This document shows, in pieces, positions 50,881 to 60,045 of a DNA stretch of 64,000 nucleotides. A program made the translations under genes and the position numbers. The notes beneath the pieces were generated by a model, which was not told the origin of the DNA, did not search any database, and was given only the letters and a program-made list of their open reading frames with translations. How positions within the stretch are numbered: the first letter of the stretch is position 1; each line of letters opens with the position of its first letter. This stretch comes from Anaerolineales bacterium (GTDB lineage: Bacteria; Chloroflexota; Anaerolineae; 4572-78; NAK82): the NCBI GenBank assembly GCA_020343875.1, contig CP070811.1:925114-989113 (forward strand), read 5' to 3'.

Positions 50881-51858
50881 CTAAGCCAAGGCTAAGGCGA
50901 TGCCGAGCATCGCGGTTAGTATTCCAACCAGCCAGAAGCGTTGTGTCACCTGCGTTTCGGACCAACCCAACAGCTCAAAGTGATGGTGGAGTGGAGCCAT
51001 CTTGAACAGTCGTTTGCCGCCAGTGAGCTTGAAATACCCTACTTGCAGGATGTCCGACATAGCTTCGGCGACGAATGTAAAGCCAACCACGGGCAACAGC
51101 AGCCACTGGCCGGTCATCAACGCTACGATAGCCAGGGTGGCGCCCAGGGACAGGGAGCCGGTGTCACCCATGAACAATTCGGCAGGATAGGCGTTGTACC
51201 AAAGGAAGGCTAAGATGGCCCCCACCACGGTAAAGTCAAAGGCAACCAGCCATATTTGGCCCTGCAAGAAAGCAATGACGCCATAAGCTGCGAAGGCGAC
51301 GGCGGCCAGGCTGCCAGCTAGAGCATCCAGGCCATCAGTCAGGTTGACTGCGTTTGATGTGCCGACAATGATGAACATAGCAACCGGAACATACCATAGG
51401 CCGATGTCGATCTTTTCGGGCACCCCAGGCAAGGCCACGCTCCGCAGGTCTAGAATGAAGTGTAAGGCCAGCGCAGTGATGGCAGCGAAAATTGTCTGCC
51501 ATAGGAATTTGTAGCGGGCCAGCATGCCGGTGGGCATACGGCGCACGCCGGTTAAGTCATCAAGGGCACCCAAGACGCCGTAGGCCACCATGACTCCCAT
51601 CGGCACCAGAATCGAGCGGCCAATCAGGGTCAGGCCTAGTAAATTGGCCAAGTTCAAAACGCCAGTGATGATCAGTACTGGCGCCAGCATCATTAATCCT
51701 CCCATGGTGGGAGTACCTATCTTAGTCTGATGCGTGCTGGGCCCATCAATGCGAATCTGCTTGCCAATGCGAAGCCCTCGCAGCAGGTTGATAAGCGGCC
51801 TGCCCCAAATGACGGTCAGCAAGAATGAAATTGTCCCAAGTGTCAGAGAGTAAGCCAT
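50881..51858 (-). CDS. mraY: Phospho-N-acetylmuramoyl-pentapeptide-transferase
   Basis: Makes lipid I from UDP-MurNAc-pentapeptide and undecaprenyl phosphate. 325 residues from ATG 51858 (a TTG 6 nt upstream is an alternative). Polytopic, about ten helices. Conserved: GTPTMGGLMML, the catalytic LGALDDLTGVRR (double Asp), NAVNLTDGLDALAGS, FMGDTGSLSLGA and the cytoplasmic HHHFELLGWSE. It directly follows murF (9 nt). Confidence 0.96.
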   Translation of the reverse strand: MAYSLTLGTISFLLTVIWGRPLINLLRGLRIGKQIRIDGPSTHQTKIGTPTMGGLMMLAPVLIITGVLNLANLLGLTLIGRSILVPMGVMVAYGVLGALDDLTGVRRMPTGMLARYKFLWQTIFAAITALALHFILDLRSVALPGVPEKIDIGLWYVPVAMFIIVGTSNAVNLTDGLDALAGSLAAVAFAAYGVIAFLQGQIWLVAFDFTVVGAILAFLWYNAYPAELFMGDTGSLSLGATLAIVALMTGQWLLLPVVGFTFVAEAMSDILQVGYFKLTGGKRLFKMAPLHHHFELLGWSETQVTQRFWLVGILTAMLGIALALA

Positions 51859-51867
51859 TGTCAATAC

Positions 51868-53292
51868 TCAGCCTGCTGGTACCTGGAGAGCAGCCACAAT
51901 CTCCTCCATCGCCATCGAGCGCGAGCCTTTCACTAGGACAATGTCGCCGTGTAGCACAGTCTGGCGCAGGTAGGCAATTGCCTGGTCATTGGTCTCAACT
52001 TGAATGATGGCGTCGGATGGCAGGCCACAGGAGTGTGCCTCCTCGGCTATCAGACGCGCCTTGGAGCCGATGGTGACGAGTAAACTCACAGTATCAGCAG
52101 CGCGACAACCCACTTTTCGGTGCCCCTCTTCCTCGTAATCGCCCAGCTCGGCCATATCCCCTATGACTGCAATCTTGCGCCCGCTCAGGTCGTCCAGCAG
52201 GTTCAGCGCGGCAATCGTTGAAGCTGGGCTAGCATTATAAGTGTCGTCGAGCAGTATCGCGCCGTTAATGCCTGGTACGCTAACCAGCCGCAACTGGACA
52301 GCGTTGTCATGTAGACCGGTCATAATCTCATGCCAGGCCATCTCTTCGATGAGTCCCACGGCAGCTGCCCGAAGTGCGGTGTGGACGCTATGACGACCCA
52401 GCAACGGCACCCTGGCATGGATGGCTTCGGCTTGGTAGTGAAGCACAAAGCGAATCCCTTCCAATCCTTCGCTTACAATATCGCTGGCCCATAGATCGGC
52501 CTCTGAGGTCAGGCCGTACGTAAATACCCGGGCCTGCGTCCGCTGCGCCATTTGACGAACGAACGGGTCGTCATGATTCAAGATGGCTACACCGTCAGCT
52601 GGCAAAGCCTGCACCAACTCCGCTTTTGCCTGGGCAATGTGCTCGATCTTTCCCAGCCGCTCCAGGTGGCTTGGTCCAACGTTGGTGACTACACCAACAT
52701 CGGGCGCGGCAATGGCGCACAATTCGCTGATCTCACCCAGGTCGTACATGCCCATTTCGAGCACAACCCGTTCGTAGAGATCATCCAGGCGAAGCAATGT
52801 TAGCGGCAGGCCGATTTCGTTGTTGAGGTTACCGGGGCTTTTTAGGGTGTTGAAGCGCTGGCGCAAGACCGCCCATGCCAGTTCTTTGGTGCTGCTCTTG
52901 CCGACACTGCCCGTGATGCCTACCACACGTGGGTTGAATCTGGCCCGCCAATAGGTAGCCAATTGTTGCAGACCTTTGAGACTGTGGGTAACTTTGAAGC
53001 ATACGGGAAGGCTCAGGGAATCAGGCACCAGTGTGTGTGATCTCTGCTCTTCAACATCCAGAGTCCAGCCCCTGATGTCCAGCGTCCGGTGCACGATGGC
53101 GGCGATGGCGCCTCGGTCGAAGGCGTCAGCCACATAGTCGTGCCCGTCCTGATGCTCGCCGGGCAACGCCACGAACAGTGTGCCGGGAGTTGCCTGACGC
53201 GAGTCGATGACTACCTGACTGATGCGTTGACTTTCGGCGGTTGGCCACCGGTATCCAGTTAAGCCCTCGATTATGTCTGCAAGTGTTAGCAT
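51868..53292 (-). CDS. murF: UDP-N-acetylmuramoyl-tripeptide--D-Ala-D-Ala ligase
   Basis: Adds D-Ala-D-Ala to the tripeptide. 474 residues with DSRQATPGTLFVALPGEHQDGHDYV near the N-terminus, the P-loop VGITGSVGKSSTKELAWAV (about 125-142), MGMYDLGEISELC, NVGPSHLERLG, DDTYNASPAST and GDMAELGDYEEEGHRKVG. Between AIVHR and KGLQQLA there is an unusual stretch TLDIRGWTLDVEEQRSH encoded by a simple direct repeat (+ strand about 53055-53087). The ATG overlaps the PBP stop by 7 nt. murE, usually just upstream, is absent. Confidence 0.95.
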   Translation of the reverse strand: MLTLADIIEGLTGYRWPTAESQRISQVVIDSRQATPGTLFVALPGEHQDGHDYVADAFDRGAIAAIVHRTLDIRGWTLDVEEQRSHTLVPDSLSLPVCFKVTHSLKGLQQLATYWRARFNPRVVGITGSVGKSSTKELAWAVLRQRFNTLKSPGNLNNEIGLPLTLLRLDDLYERVVLEMGMYDLGEISELCAIAAPDVGVVTNVGPSHLERLGKIEHIAQAKAELVQALPADGVAILNHDDPFVRQMAQRTQARVFTYGLTSEADLWASDIVSEGLEGIRFVLHYQAEAIHARVPLLGRHSVHTALRAAAVGLIEEMAWHEIMTGLHDNAVQLRLVSVPGINGAILLDDTYNASPASTIAALNLLDDLSGRKIAVIGDMAELGDYEEEGHRKVGCRAADTVSLLVTIGSKARLIAEEAHSCGLPSDAIIQVETNDQAIAYLRQTVLHGDIVLVKGSRSMAMEEIVAALQVPAG

Positions 53293-55136
53293 ATTACTTC
53301 ATTCGTAGAGACAGATGGAATTAGTGACTCTGCAGCCACCCATCGCAAAATTGCGTTTTGGGTGCAGCACCGACCTGTGCCGACTGTAAGCCTTGTGGAC
53401 GACAGGGAGACAGGGCGGGTAGGTATTTGTTGGCCTGTCGATTGGTTAAGCCGTATCTCATCTGGCGGTATGTCAAACAGGGTCATCAGCTGTTGGGCGA
53501 TGCGGGCAAATACTGGCGCCGCGACCTGTCCCCCCCAGGGCGAGGTTTGAGGTTTGTGGATGACAACCAGGATCACGAAAGCCGGGTCGTCGGCTGGCAG
53601 GTAGCCAGCGAATGAGGCAACTGTAAAGGTAGGATGATAGCCCCCTGGGATGGGAATTTGAGCTGTGCCAGTTTTGCCTGCCACGCGGTAGCCAGGTACC
53701 TGTGCCAGTTCAGTTTCCTGGTTCACCGCTGCCACCAACATTTCAGTCATCGTTTGAGCTGTACGCCCTAGAATGACCCGACGCACCACGGTGGGTTGTA
53801 CGGATAGAGTTCGGTTGTCTTCGACGATCTTTTGTACGATATGGGGCTTCATCAACAAGCCGTCGTTGGCCAGGGCAGCCACTGCCGCGGTCATCTGCAA
53901 TGGAGTGACGGCGATGCCTTGCCCAAAGCTGTTGGTTCCCAGATCGCTTTCGTGCCAATTGGGATCCCCCGGTATCTTGAGGGTTCCAGGTCCCTCGCTG
54001 TCTAAATCCACTTCCGTGATGCGCCCAAAGCCAAAGCGCCGCACGTAAGTGTAGAATCGCTCCTTGCCTAACATGACTGCGACTTGTGCCGCCCCCACGT
54101 TAAGCGACTTGCCCAGTACAGTGGTCATGTCTACTGTGCCATGTGGCTGTCGATCCCAATTCAAGATGGTTCGACCACCTACCTCGATAGTGCCGCCATC
54201 ATAGATGGTTGTCTGGGGGGTGATGATGTCTGAGTCAAGGCCGGCCGCCAGAGTGATGACTTTGAACACGGAGCCTGGCTCGTACTGCTCGCTCACAGCA
54301 GGATCGGGAAAATGATTTTGATCCGCCTCAGCAAAGTCATTAGGGTTGTAGCTGGGCCAACTAGCCATAGCCACAACACCGCCTGTTTTTGGGTCAAGCA
54401 CCACCACGGTGCCACTGGCTGCCTGATACTCAACCATGGCGTCTGCCAGTTCGCGTTCCACGATATATTGTGCAGTGCGGTCTACGGTGAGCACCAGACT
54501 CTTACCATCGCGGGTAGGAATGTAGTGTCCGGGCCCAATCGGAATAGATGAGCCAAAGGGGTCTCGTTCGATTTGGCGTAGACCTGGGGTCCCGCTCAGC
54601 GTGGCGTCGTAGTAGCCCTCAACACCATAGAACCCGTTGTCATTGTCGTTGACGAAACCGGTCAGGTGCGCAGCTAGCGTGCCCATTGGATAGACTCGCT
54701 TGGGGTAGGTCTCCACTTGAATGCCCGTAATATCCCATTCGAGAATCGTCTCACCCATTGGCTGGGGCACTGCGCGTGAGAGGGGAACCCACGCAGCCTC
54801 ACTGGTCAGTGCCGTCAATGCCTCGTCTCGGCTCATTCCTAGCAGCGGGTGGAGTCGGTCAGCAGTGGTTTGAGGGTCGCTGATCATCGACGGTGAGGCA
54901 GATACTGTATATTGAAAAGTGTCGGCTGCAAACAGGAATCCATTGCGGTCGTAGATTGAGCCTCGACGTGGTCGGATGGTGACTTCTGACTGATGTTCTT
55001 CTTCGGCCAAAGCCAGGAGCGTGTTATGCTCAAGCACTTGCCAGCGAAAGAGCCGCGCGACGAGAATCAGAGCGCCAGCCGATAGAATGGCCATAAGGAC
55101 TATGATACGCCAGCGTGTGCCAGAATTGGCTGTCAT
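53286..55136 (-). CDS. Class B penicillin-binding protein (FtsI/PBP2-like transpeptidase)
   Basis: Crosslinks septal peptidoglycan with FtsW. 616 residues: transmembrane helix (about 10-27), a pedestal with IRPRRGSIYDRNGFLFA (about 53-68), and a transpeptidase domain with YEPGSVFKVITLAAG (nucleophile Ser near 300), GKSLNVG (SxN) and VAGKTGTAQIP (KTG). No PASTA repeats, unlike many Firmicutes spore or septal PBPs. The last 45 residues are irregular and Ser/Thr-rich, encoded close to the murF start. Downstream of ftsL, upstream of murF. Confidence 0.93.
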   Translation of the reverse strand: MTANSGTRWRIIVLMAILSAGALILVARLFRWQVLEHNTLLALAEEEHQSEVTIRPRRGSIYDRNGFLFAADTFQYTVSASPSMISDPQTTADRLHPLLGMSRDEALTALTSEAAWVPLSRAVPQPMGETILEWDITGIQVETYPKRVYPMGTLAAHLTGFVNDNDNGFYGVEGYYDATLSGTPGLRQIERDPFGSSIPIGPGHYIPTRDGKSLVLTVDRTAQYIVERELADAMVEYQAASGTVVVLDPKTGGVVAMASWPSYNPNDFAEADQNHFPDPAVSEQYEPGSVFKVITLAAGLDSDIITPQTTIYDGGTIEVGGRTILNWDRQPHGTVDMTTVLGKSLNVGAAQVAVMLGKERFYTYVRRFGFGRITEVDLDSEGPGTLKIPGDPNWHESDLGTNSFGQGIAVTPLQMTAAVAALANDGLLMKPHIVQKIVEDNRTLSVQPTVVRRVILGRTAQTMTEMLVAAVNQETELAQVPGYRVAGKTGTAQIPIPGGYHPTFTVASFAGYLPADDPAFVILVVIHKPQTSPWGGQVAAPVFARIAQQLMTLFDIPPDEIRLNQSTGQQIPTRPVSLSSTRLTVGTGRCCTQNAILRWVAAESLIPSVSTNEVIC

Positions 55137-55182: not shown

Positions 55183-55632
55183 TCATCTTACTGATTGGCT
55201 AACACTTGTGCATTCGCTACCGCTTGCGGAGCAAGCAGCAGGCGGTGGGTTTACATATGTCTGTTGATTTGCCTGATCTGCGACCGGATAATTAGGTACC
55301 GATAGATAAAGTATTTGGCTGGGTGGCCCGAAGCCAAGTTCGCGCGCTCGTTGTTCGATCCTGGGTAGAGCTTCCCACTCGGCTATCTCCAGTTCCAGCT
55401 GGGCGTTTTGCTGGTTCAACATAGAGAGTTCAGCTCTAAGCTTCTCAGTCTGAAAGCTAATGGTAGCCAAAGAACTTGCCTGCGTGAGATAAAGCCAACC
55501 GATGAGGCTGACGGTGATAAGGATCAGTAACATCCCCAGGGCTGCTTTGCGCTCGAGTCGCCAGGTGAAGCTCTGGGTTAGAGACCCGGGGCGAAACAGA
55601 GTCTGGACGGTGTGTATCGTTTGGCTAGACAT
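55183..55632 (-). CDS. ftsL: FtsL-like divisome protein
   Basis: 149 residues from ATG 55632, with GAGGGG 7 nt upstream that overlaps the rsmH end. One transmembrane helix (about 33-52, LGMLLILITVSLIGWLYL), then a coiled coil (about 60-95, EKLRAELSMLNQQNAQLELEI), and a C-terminal part with a Pro-rich end. This topology and place between rsmH and the PBP fit FtsL/DivIC; sequence similarity in this family is low. It stabilises the FtsQ-FtsL-FtsB complex. Confidence 0.82.
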   Translation of the reverse strand: MSSQTIHTVQTLFRPGSLTQSFTWRLERKAALGMLLILITVSLIGWLYLTQASSLATISFQTEKLRAELSMLNQQNAQLELEIAEWEALPRIEQRARELGFGPPSQILYLSVPNYPVADQANQQTYVNPPPAACSASGSECTSVSQSVR

Positions 55633-55636
55633 AATG

Positions 55637-56572
55637 CTACCCCTCAATGCGTTCAGCGACCCGCAGCTTCGCGCTGCGGGCCCTGGGATTGACGCTGATT
55701 TCTTGGCCGCTGGCGGTAATTGGCTTTCGTGTTATAATACGTAACGTAGCTCGATGATTGCAGGTACAAATGGGCTGCCCAGGTGGACATATACATTCTC
55801 TAGATTCTTGTACGAAGAAATTCTTGACGATCCGATCTTCCAAGGAATGGAAACTGATTACAGCCAGCCGTCCGCCGGCAGACAGCAGCGTCACCGCGTC
55901 TGGCAGGGTGCTACTTAGTGCTCCCAGCTCGTCGTTGACCGCAATGCGCAATGCTTGGAAGGTACGCGTGGCCGGGTGAATCCTTGCCTTTCGCCGCCCA
56001 CCTACCGCTCGGGTCACTACATCAGCCAGCTGGCGCGTGGAGCGCATCGGACGGGCGGCGACTACGGCGCGGGCAATGGCTCGGCTGCGCCTCTCTTCAC
56101 CGAAACGGTACAGCAGATCGGCCAATTCGCTTTGAGATAAGTTGTTGACTAAATCGGCGGCGGTCGTAGGGCCGCTCAGATCGTATCTCATATCCAGTGG
56201 ACCTTCGCATTGAAATGAGAATCCGCGCTCAGTGGCACTCAATTGCATCGATGACAGTCCCAGATCAAGTAAGATACCTTGCACTGAGACGAAATCGTAT
56301 CTATGGGCAATGGTAAGTAGTTGGGCAAAGTTGGCGTTGACGAGACGGGCGCGGTCATTGTAAGGTGCGAGCCGTTGGCGAGCGACATCTAGGGCAGTGG
56401 AATCAGCGTCTAGGGCTAATAACTGCCCATTGGGGGCGGTGGCTTTCAAAATGGCTGCGGCGTGCCCCCCAGCACCAACGGTGCCGTCAATGAAGCATTG
56501 GCCGGGGTGGGGGTTGAGTTCCTCTAATACCTTGTCGAGAAGAACAGGAATGTGTGACGCTGGTTCCTCCAC
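55637..56572 (-). CDS. rsmH: 16S rRNA (cytosine-1402-N4)-methyltransferase
   Basis: Methylates N4 of C1402 in 16S rRNA. 311 residues with [13 protein letters not shown] at the N-terminus, the SAM site [16 protein letters not shown] (about 28-43), [29 protein letters not shown], and [19 protein letters not shown]. Cys-rich [12 protein letters not shown] near the end is normal for the family. GTG start 2 nt after the mraZ stop. Confidence 0.97.
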
Positions 56573-56574
56573 CG

Positions 56575-57006
56575 CTAAATATCCAGTTCTTGTAACTGTT
56601 CGGCAATGGACTCAGGATTTTCCTCAACCTTCGCTTTCACATTGGTCCAATTTGCAGGATTCCAGATTTCTAACCTGTCGTATAGGCCAATAATGATCGC
56701 ATCACTGTTAAGTTCTGCATATTCACGCAGGCCTTGCGGGATCAACACACGACCTTGCCGATCTGGGATGAAGTCAGCAGCGCCCGAAAACATCAGGCGC
56801 CCAAAATTACGGGCGTTGCGCTGAGTGAGGGGGAGTTTGGCGATGCGCTCAGCCAGGTCGTCCCACACCACACGTGGATATACGGAGAGGCAACGATCTA
56901 TGCCCCGCGTAACTACCAAGCCACCAGCTAGCTCATCCCGAAACTTGGCTGGGACTGTTAGCCGTCCTTTGCTATCTAGGGTGTGCGAAAACTCTCCAAG
57001 AAACAT
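56575..57006 (-). CDS. mraZ: Transcriptional regulator MraZ
   Basis: DNA-binding repressor of the division/wall operon, a ring of AbrB-like folds. 143 residues from ATG 57006, the canonical [23 protein letters not shown]; the frame to 57090 runs into the operator. The two DxxxR repeats are DSKGR (about 12) and DRQGR (about 84), each followed by an (I/V)P turn. GGGGGAG lies about 11 nt upstream. First gene of a cluster of about 19 kb, preceded by three TGGGG boxes, so it probably represses itself and the operon. Confidence 0.97.
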
Positions 57007-57062
57007 CGTGGGTCGTTCTCCCCCACAGAGACTATATTGGGGGCCAGAACATATGTTCTTTC

Positions 57063-57087
57063 CCCCACTTTGCCCCATTATTCCCCA
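57063..57087 (-). promoter_or_regulatory. MraZ operator: three TGGGG boxes 10 bp apart
   Basis: On the minus strand TGGGG occurs at 57087-57083, 57077-57073 and 57067-57063, exactly one helical turn apart; a fourth is at 57025-57021. Known MraZ sites are TGGG-type repeats with 5-nt spacers. Placement just after the -10 box fits autorepression. Confidence 0.85.
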
Positions 57088-57098
57088 CAAGTAACCAC

Positions 57099-57127
57099 AT
57101 TATACACCACTTTGATCCACTTGTCTA
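57099..57127 (-). promoter_or_regulatory. Promoter of the division/wall operon
   Basis: Minus strand TAGACA (57127-57122), 17 nt, TATAAT (57104-57099). The MraZ boxes begin 12 nt downstream of the -10 box. Confidence 0.8.
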
Positions 57128-57199: not shown

Positions 57200-57228
57200 T
57201 TGCGACTCAACTGGAAGTGCGGTATAAT
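57200..57228 (+). promoter_or_regulatory. Promoter of the polysaccharide cluster
   Basis: TTGCGA (57200-57205), 17 nt, TATAAT (57223-57228), about 65 nt before rmd. Divergent from the mraZ promoter. Confidence 0.55.

Positions 57229-57293: not shown

Positions 57294-60045
<2,752 letters not shown>

Follow-up and report, generated by a model that had tools for sequence, protein, structure and literature searches.

A probable composite MraZ–LexA operator with a phased distal MraZ box upstream of the division and cell-wall operon in an Anaerolineales bacterium

MraZ is among the most widely conserved bacterial regulators, and its signal is still unclear. That it binds direct repeats and represses its own operon is established in the accessible portions of PMC8475190, PMC5282649 and PMC5138195, the second of which quotes the site as (AAAGTGKN3)3. 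The operators of E. coli and the Mollicutes (Eraso 2014 and Fisunov 2016, as reported in PMC8475190 and PMC5282649) are similar to the one discussed here, in that 10-bp direct repeats lie at the promoter of the division and cell-wall (dcw) cluster and MraZ represses its own operon there. As far as those accounts go, the present locus differs from them in having four boxes after the -10 element plus two in the promoter spacer (in this bacterial order), and in having an isolated, phased box at +42 with an adjoining LexA box.

A LexA site at mraZ has been predicted for Gram-positive metagenomes of the human gut, where B. subtilis LexA binds in a gel-shift assay (Cornish 2014, PMC3998124). Control by LexA at mraZ, as reported in the accessible part of that paper, is thus not new in kind, since there too a LexA-type site precedes mraZ; the case differs in resting on a metagenome search in another phylum, and the same part of the paper gives no MraZ boxes, spacing rule or start-codon overlap. 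According to the accessible part of PMC3265435, LexA also represses the E. coli dcw cluster; a composite that includes a phased MraZ box is not described there. By title and abstract, no description of a composite operator or of a phased fourth box was found in the literature on MraZ sites, LexA at mraZ, the SOS response of Chloroflexi, or SOS control of dcw genes, most of the subscription papers lying outside our reach.

The window analysed is a stretch of 64,000 nucleotides of contig CP070811.1, in which mraZ heads a dcw run on the minus strand, followed by rsmH, a DivIC/FtsL-like gene, a penicillin-binding protein, a Mur ligase and an mraY-like gene:

56575 to 57006, minus strand: mraZ, 143 aa, with its ATG at 57006
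55637 to 56572, minus strand: rsmH (mraW), the second dcw gene
55183 to 55647, minus strand: DivIC/FtsL-like gene, start uncertain
53286 to 55136, minus strand: ftsI-like penicillin-binding protein that has transpeptidase and dimerisation domains
51868 to 53292, minus strand: Mur ligase, murF-like by gene order
50881 to 51864, minus strand: mraY-like glycosyltransferase of family 4

The 143-aa product matches the Pfam profile PF02381 in two stretches (E 9.7e-39, 131.6 bits) and scores 136.7 bits against TIGR00242, for which the cut-off is 98.35; MraZ chains in the PDB also matched it by sequence. The product of 56575 to 57006 therefore combines two MraZ domains and a score above the curated threshold with the first place in the dcw cluster, as is characteristic of the family.

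The leader of mraZ contains the following features:

57122 to 57127, minus strand: -35-like hexamer TAGACA, identical in all six leaders compared within the order
57115 to 57119, minus strand: MraZ-like box TGGAT within the promoter spacer, TGG being present here in 6/6 same-order leaders
57105 to 57109, minus strand: MraZ-like box TGGTG within the promoter spacer, TGG being present here in 4/6 same-order leaders
57099 to 57104, minus strand: -10 hexamer TATAAT, 17-bp spacer
57093 to 57097, minus strand: ladder box 1, immediately behind the -10, reading TGGTT here and TGGGT in the 85% relative
57083 to 57087, minus strand: ladder box 2, TGGGG (box 1 of the sequence-only reading)
57073 to 57077, minus strand: ladder box 3, TGGGG (box 2 of that reading)
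57063 to 57067, minus strand: ladder box 4, TGGGG (box 3 of that reading)
57046 to 57059: LexA/SOS-type box AGAACATATGTTCT, a perfect 14-bp palindrome separated by 3 bp from the last ladder box
57021 to 57025, minus strand: distal MraZ-like box TGGGG that stands alone, at a distance of 42 bp (four turns) to ladder box 4

The sigma-70-type promoter TAGACA-17-TATAAT (57127 to 57099, minus strand) scores 11/12. The sequence-only reading had proposed an MraZ operator of three TGGGG boxes spaced by 10 bp, and these are indeed located upstream of mraZ at 57087, 57077 and 57067 on the minus strand. Its statement that the boxes begin right after the -10 is correct for GTGG(TT) at 57098, and incorrect for the first TGGGG, which begins 11 nt beyond that point. 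Nor does the ladder stop at three boxes: TGG is found at 57119, 57109, 57097, 57087, 57077 and 57067, with a single 12-bp step across the -10. That reading had overlooked the LexA-type palindrome as well as the two spacer boxes, which place half a ladder within the promoter.

At least three (AAA)GTGG/TGGG repeats with a 10-bp period thus lie at the mraZ promoter, and TGGGGN5TGGGGN5TGGGG has one match in the whole 5.35-Mb genome (reversed control, 0). The position of this ladder upstream of an MraZ gene, and its fit to the binding site (AAAGTGKN3)3 as quoted in the accessible text of PMC5282649, lend support to the operator interpretation. The ladder is of the known MraZ operator type, which makes the core finding an ordinary one; binding and repression by MraZ are predicted from the sequence. 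Clostridia loci likewise have a three-box, AAAGTGG-type ladder after a -10, so that the ladder is old as well as known.

A search of 199 genomes of the class for mraZ was positive in 182, and 149 leaders, that of the genome under study included, were analysed; 33 of the 182 mraZ-bearing genomes and a second match in G057 were left out, and the start codon could not be placed in 21/149 rows. The named relatives put this genome within Chloroflexota, the nearest of them being a Chloroflexi metagenome-assembled genome (85% identical; L013), followed by Thermomicrobiales, Caldilineaceae and others. Kinship among the genomes means that counts of leaders are not independent. A lack of conservation upstream of orthologous mraZ genes had been named as grounds for abandoning the operator; in fact, three or more TGGs at period 10 are found in 134/149 leaders of the class, compared with 0 to 3 leaders for periods 5 to 9 and 11 to 19, and 14 for period 20. 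Mononucleotide shuffles of the same leaders give a mean of 0.24 period-10 ladders and a maximum of 2. Among six genomes of the same order (own included), both spacer boxes are kept in four and one in two, and TGGs are found at +1, +11, +21 and +31 after the -10 in 5/6.

The fourth TGGGG box, for which the sequence-only reading had suggested looping or extended binding, is present at 57025 to 57021 on the minus strand, and the distance from the last ladder box (57067 to 57025) is exactly 42. The proposal of a role for it gains support from the relatives: 52 of the 134 ladder-bearing leaders (13/41 families) have an isolated TGGG at 41 to 44 bp beyond the end of the ladder, locked to the array, and the 15/149 leaders without a ladder were excluded from these offset counts, one further distal-box analysis using 109. 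Among all pairs of tetramer and offset from +8 to +124, TGGG at +42 is the commonest (43 leaders), the next unrelated pair being GAAC at +53 (15 leaders). Isolated boxes at other distances favour a period of 10.5 bp, with a vector strength of 0.52 compared with 0.34 at 9 bp and 0.28 at 12 bp (n=64); part of the 10-bp scatter in these offsets is due to where the ladder run is taken to end.

Inspection by eye reveals a probable Shine-Dalgarno sequence, GGGGGAG (57024 to 57018), overlapping the fourth box and ending 11 nt before the ATG. The box might then be a ribosome-binding element and nothing else, as would be congruent with the isolated TGGG starting 15 to 21 nt before the start codon in 30/52 leaders. 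We regard this explanation as rather unlikely. Across the leaders the distance between the isolated TGGG (+41 to +44) and the start codon varies between 6 and 179 nt; in 21/52 it is 23 to 179 nt away, too far for most, and even in these the distance of 41 to 44 bp to the ladder is kept. Where the +42 point falls at least 25 nt from the start, 20/56 leaders still possess TGGG, and the consensus of the isolated boxes, AAGTGGGG, copies the ladder box. In these leaders the TGGG thus keeps a distance of about four turns to the ladder independently of the start codon. In the present genome the fourth box doubles as the likely Shine-Dalgarno sequence, and the case for a role in MraZ binding here is therefore drawn from the relatives.

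In the window the LexA-type palindrome follows the ladder and precedes the fourth box. The exact motif GAACN4GTTC occurs in 66/149 mraZ leaders (68 sites, 27/46 families), compared with 0 to 3 for any other spacer length between 0 and 12 and likewise 0 to 3 for permuted half-sites. It is absent from the other 83 leaders, including those of G015 and G080, which belong to the same family as the window, and 15 of these 83 contain a one-mismatch version at the start-codon register described below. In ladder-bearing leaders all 63 of 63 sites lie downstream of the ladder and none upstream, their offsets from the last ladder box clustering either at 7 to 9, as in the window's family and order, or at 50 to 59, the latter cluster holding with or without overlap of the start codon. 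The spacing to the distal box is similarly constrained: in leaders with both a +41 to +44 box and a LexA box, the latter lies 9 to 15 bp after the TGGG in 35/41, and in the other 6/41 it stands between the ladder and the isolated box, as in the window.

Thirty-two of the sites overlap the mraZ start codon, all in the one register GAACNN-ATG-TTC (for instance in G139, G004 and G017). At this register GAAC accompanies the Phe codon TTC in 32/70 leaders and its synonym TTT in 3/43 (Fisher p 8e-6); with one row per family, codon and state, the corresponding values are 15/33 and 1/17 (p 0.004). Such LexA boxes, which span both the start codon and the Phe codon after it, show selection on an operator inside coding sequence.

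A scan of 400 genomes of the phylum for two composite MraZ–LexA patterns gave matches in 11 and 14 genomes, with none for the reversed control of either. The matches in G033, G035 and G067 coincide with mraZ leaders already analysed; those in G552, G346 and G398, and the first in G567, look like chance. In the class of the Clostridia genome G570 the composite pattern was found in 0/196 at the two spacings tried (reversed controls, 0 and 1). In the matches of this phylum scan in G381, G351, G517, G164 and G567, a GC-rich inverted repeat of the type GCGCCGG...CCGGCGC lies between the ladder and the LexA box. The divergent gene at 57294 (plus strand) was considered as the target of the LexA box and rejected, as this gene has a promoter-like pair of its own at 57200 to 57228, about 140 bp away, and the box goes with mraZ in other genomes.

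The genome encodes two LexA proteins, each possessing DNA-binding and S24 peptidase domains and passing TIGR00498. Their genes (L036:1060-1710 and L007:803-1414, both on the minus strand) have LexA-type boxes in their leaders, the one at L007 having two that are 32 bp apart. AGAACATATGTTCT is found at three places in the genome: at mraZ, in one lexA leader (with the second such box 32 bp away) and at imuA. In the promoter of the other lexA, between the -35 and the -10, the sequence is AGAACACACGTTCG. At L003:1501-2780 the imuA site lies 50 bp before a RecA-fold/ImuA-like gene that is followed by a gene for a Y-family polymerase, probably an imuA-imuB SOS mutagenesis cassette. The palindrome at mraZ is thus of the GAACN4GTTC type found at the organism's own lexA. 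A box of this type is reportedly also used in Dehalococcoides, and the Gram-positive LexA box has the same core with R and Y at its inner positions, so that the motif is no different. The E. coli LexA motif, on the other hand, is of another type.

Fifty lexA leaders of the class were sampled, comprising the 30 best-scoring and 20 chosen ones (17 of the 20 from genomes with a box at mraZ), and 43/50 contain GAACN4GTTC, compared with 0 to 2 for other spacers; we therefore take this to be the SOS box of the class. Within the genome, exact GAACAYRYGTTC occurs at seven loci, two of which, inside a hypE-like gene (identified by eye) and before an ABC transporter gene, may be chance. One-mismatch matches to GAACAYRYGTTC are at background (39 and 51, compared with 47 and 42 for the reversed control), and the LexA regulon is therefore unreadable from the motif alone. 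Runs of about 100 N are present in loci L003, L004, L007, L012 and L038 of this genome, and were read as masked stretches.

The palindrome could instead be part of a hairpin in the leader RNA, acting through attenuation or occlusion of the ribosome site, with no role for LexA. The mraZ leader RNA (57004 to 57092, minus strand) does fold better than its shuffles (-34 kcal/mol, z -3.7), and GGGGG/CCCCC arms on either side of the palindrome lengthen the stem. However, the letters of the half-sites do not vary, permuted half-sites at the same spacing being found in 0 to 3 leaders where the true ones are found in 66; compensatory change would have the opposite effect. These letters recur in lexA leaders, and in both lexA genes of this genome they lie between the -35 and the -10. 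No intrinsic terminator was found in the mraZ leader. We consider a hairpin in place of a LexA site improbable.

There is also little likelihood that GAACN4GTTC at mraZ is read by a repressor other than LexA. The presence of two LexA paralogues in this genome leaves some room for it, as do three of the 66 box-bearing genomes in which LexA was not found (G104, G128 and G166, all incomplete or fragmented assemblies); set against this, the box precedes both lexA genes and the imuA-imuB cassette, and is the one found in the class lexA leaders sampled above. That the ladder alone has a function, with palindrome and fourth box both incidental, is very improbable: the ladder by itself constitutes a described MraZ site and some relatives lack one or other element, but neither the excess of exact LexA-type boxes over their controls nor the first rank of TGGG at +42 would be expected.

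We thus favour, with a probability of roughly three in four, a composite operator before the division and cell-wall operon, in which MraZ autorepression would be combined with a phased fourth MraZ contact and with control by LexA. MraZ bound to the 10-bp ladder would cover the promoter spacer and the start region and so repress its own operon. The MraZ ring has eight subunits. The fourth box, 42 bp on and on the same face of the helix, might serve as a further contact for the same ring and steady the complex; DNA wrapped round such a ring would be expected to show the pattern seen, with four consecutive boxes and a fifth near the eighth step of 10.5 bp. Four turns leave little length for DNA to loop freely, and wrapping on one ring is therefore favoured over the looping suggested earlier. 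The LexA box is centred about 40 bp past the expected transcription start, where LexA might act as a second repressor or as a roadblock, and its removal upon DNA damage would release the operon.

The phased fourth box offers a geometric rule for how the MraZ ring may hold DNA. Since the LexA box and an MraZ box lie no more than about one turn apart, a bolder reading can be proposed, in which release of LexA would lead to a burst of MraZ and division would be perturbed. MraZ is made first from the operon and its overproduction perturbs division elsewhere (according to the accessible text of PMC8475190, it causes filamentation in a mycoplasma), and a damage-induced burst might for these reasons delay division. 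The division operon of this Chloroflexota class would then be a standing SOS target, with the MraZ burst as a checkpoint that takes over the part of an inhibitor like SulA or YneA; we hold this to be doubtful. The occurrence of the MraZ–LexA combination in many relatives does suggest that division genes are wired directly to DNA damage there, and an MraZ operator with a LexA box at fixed spacing across many families makes damage control of division and wall synthesis now testable.
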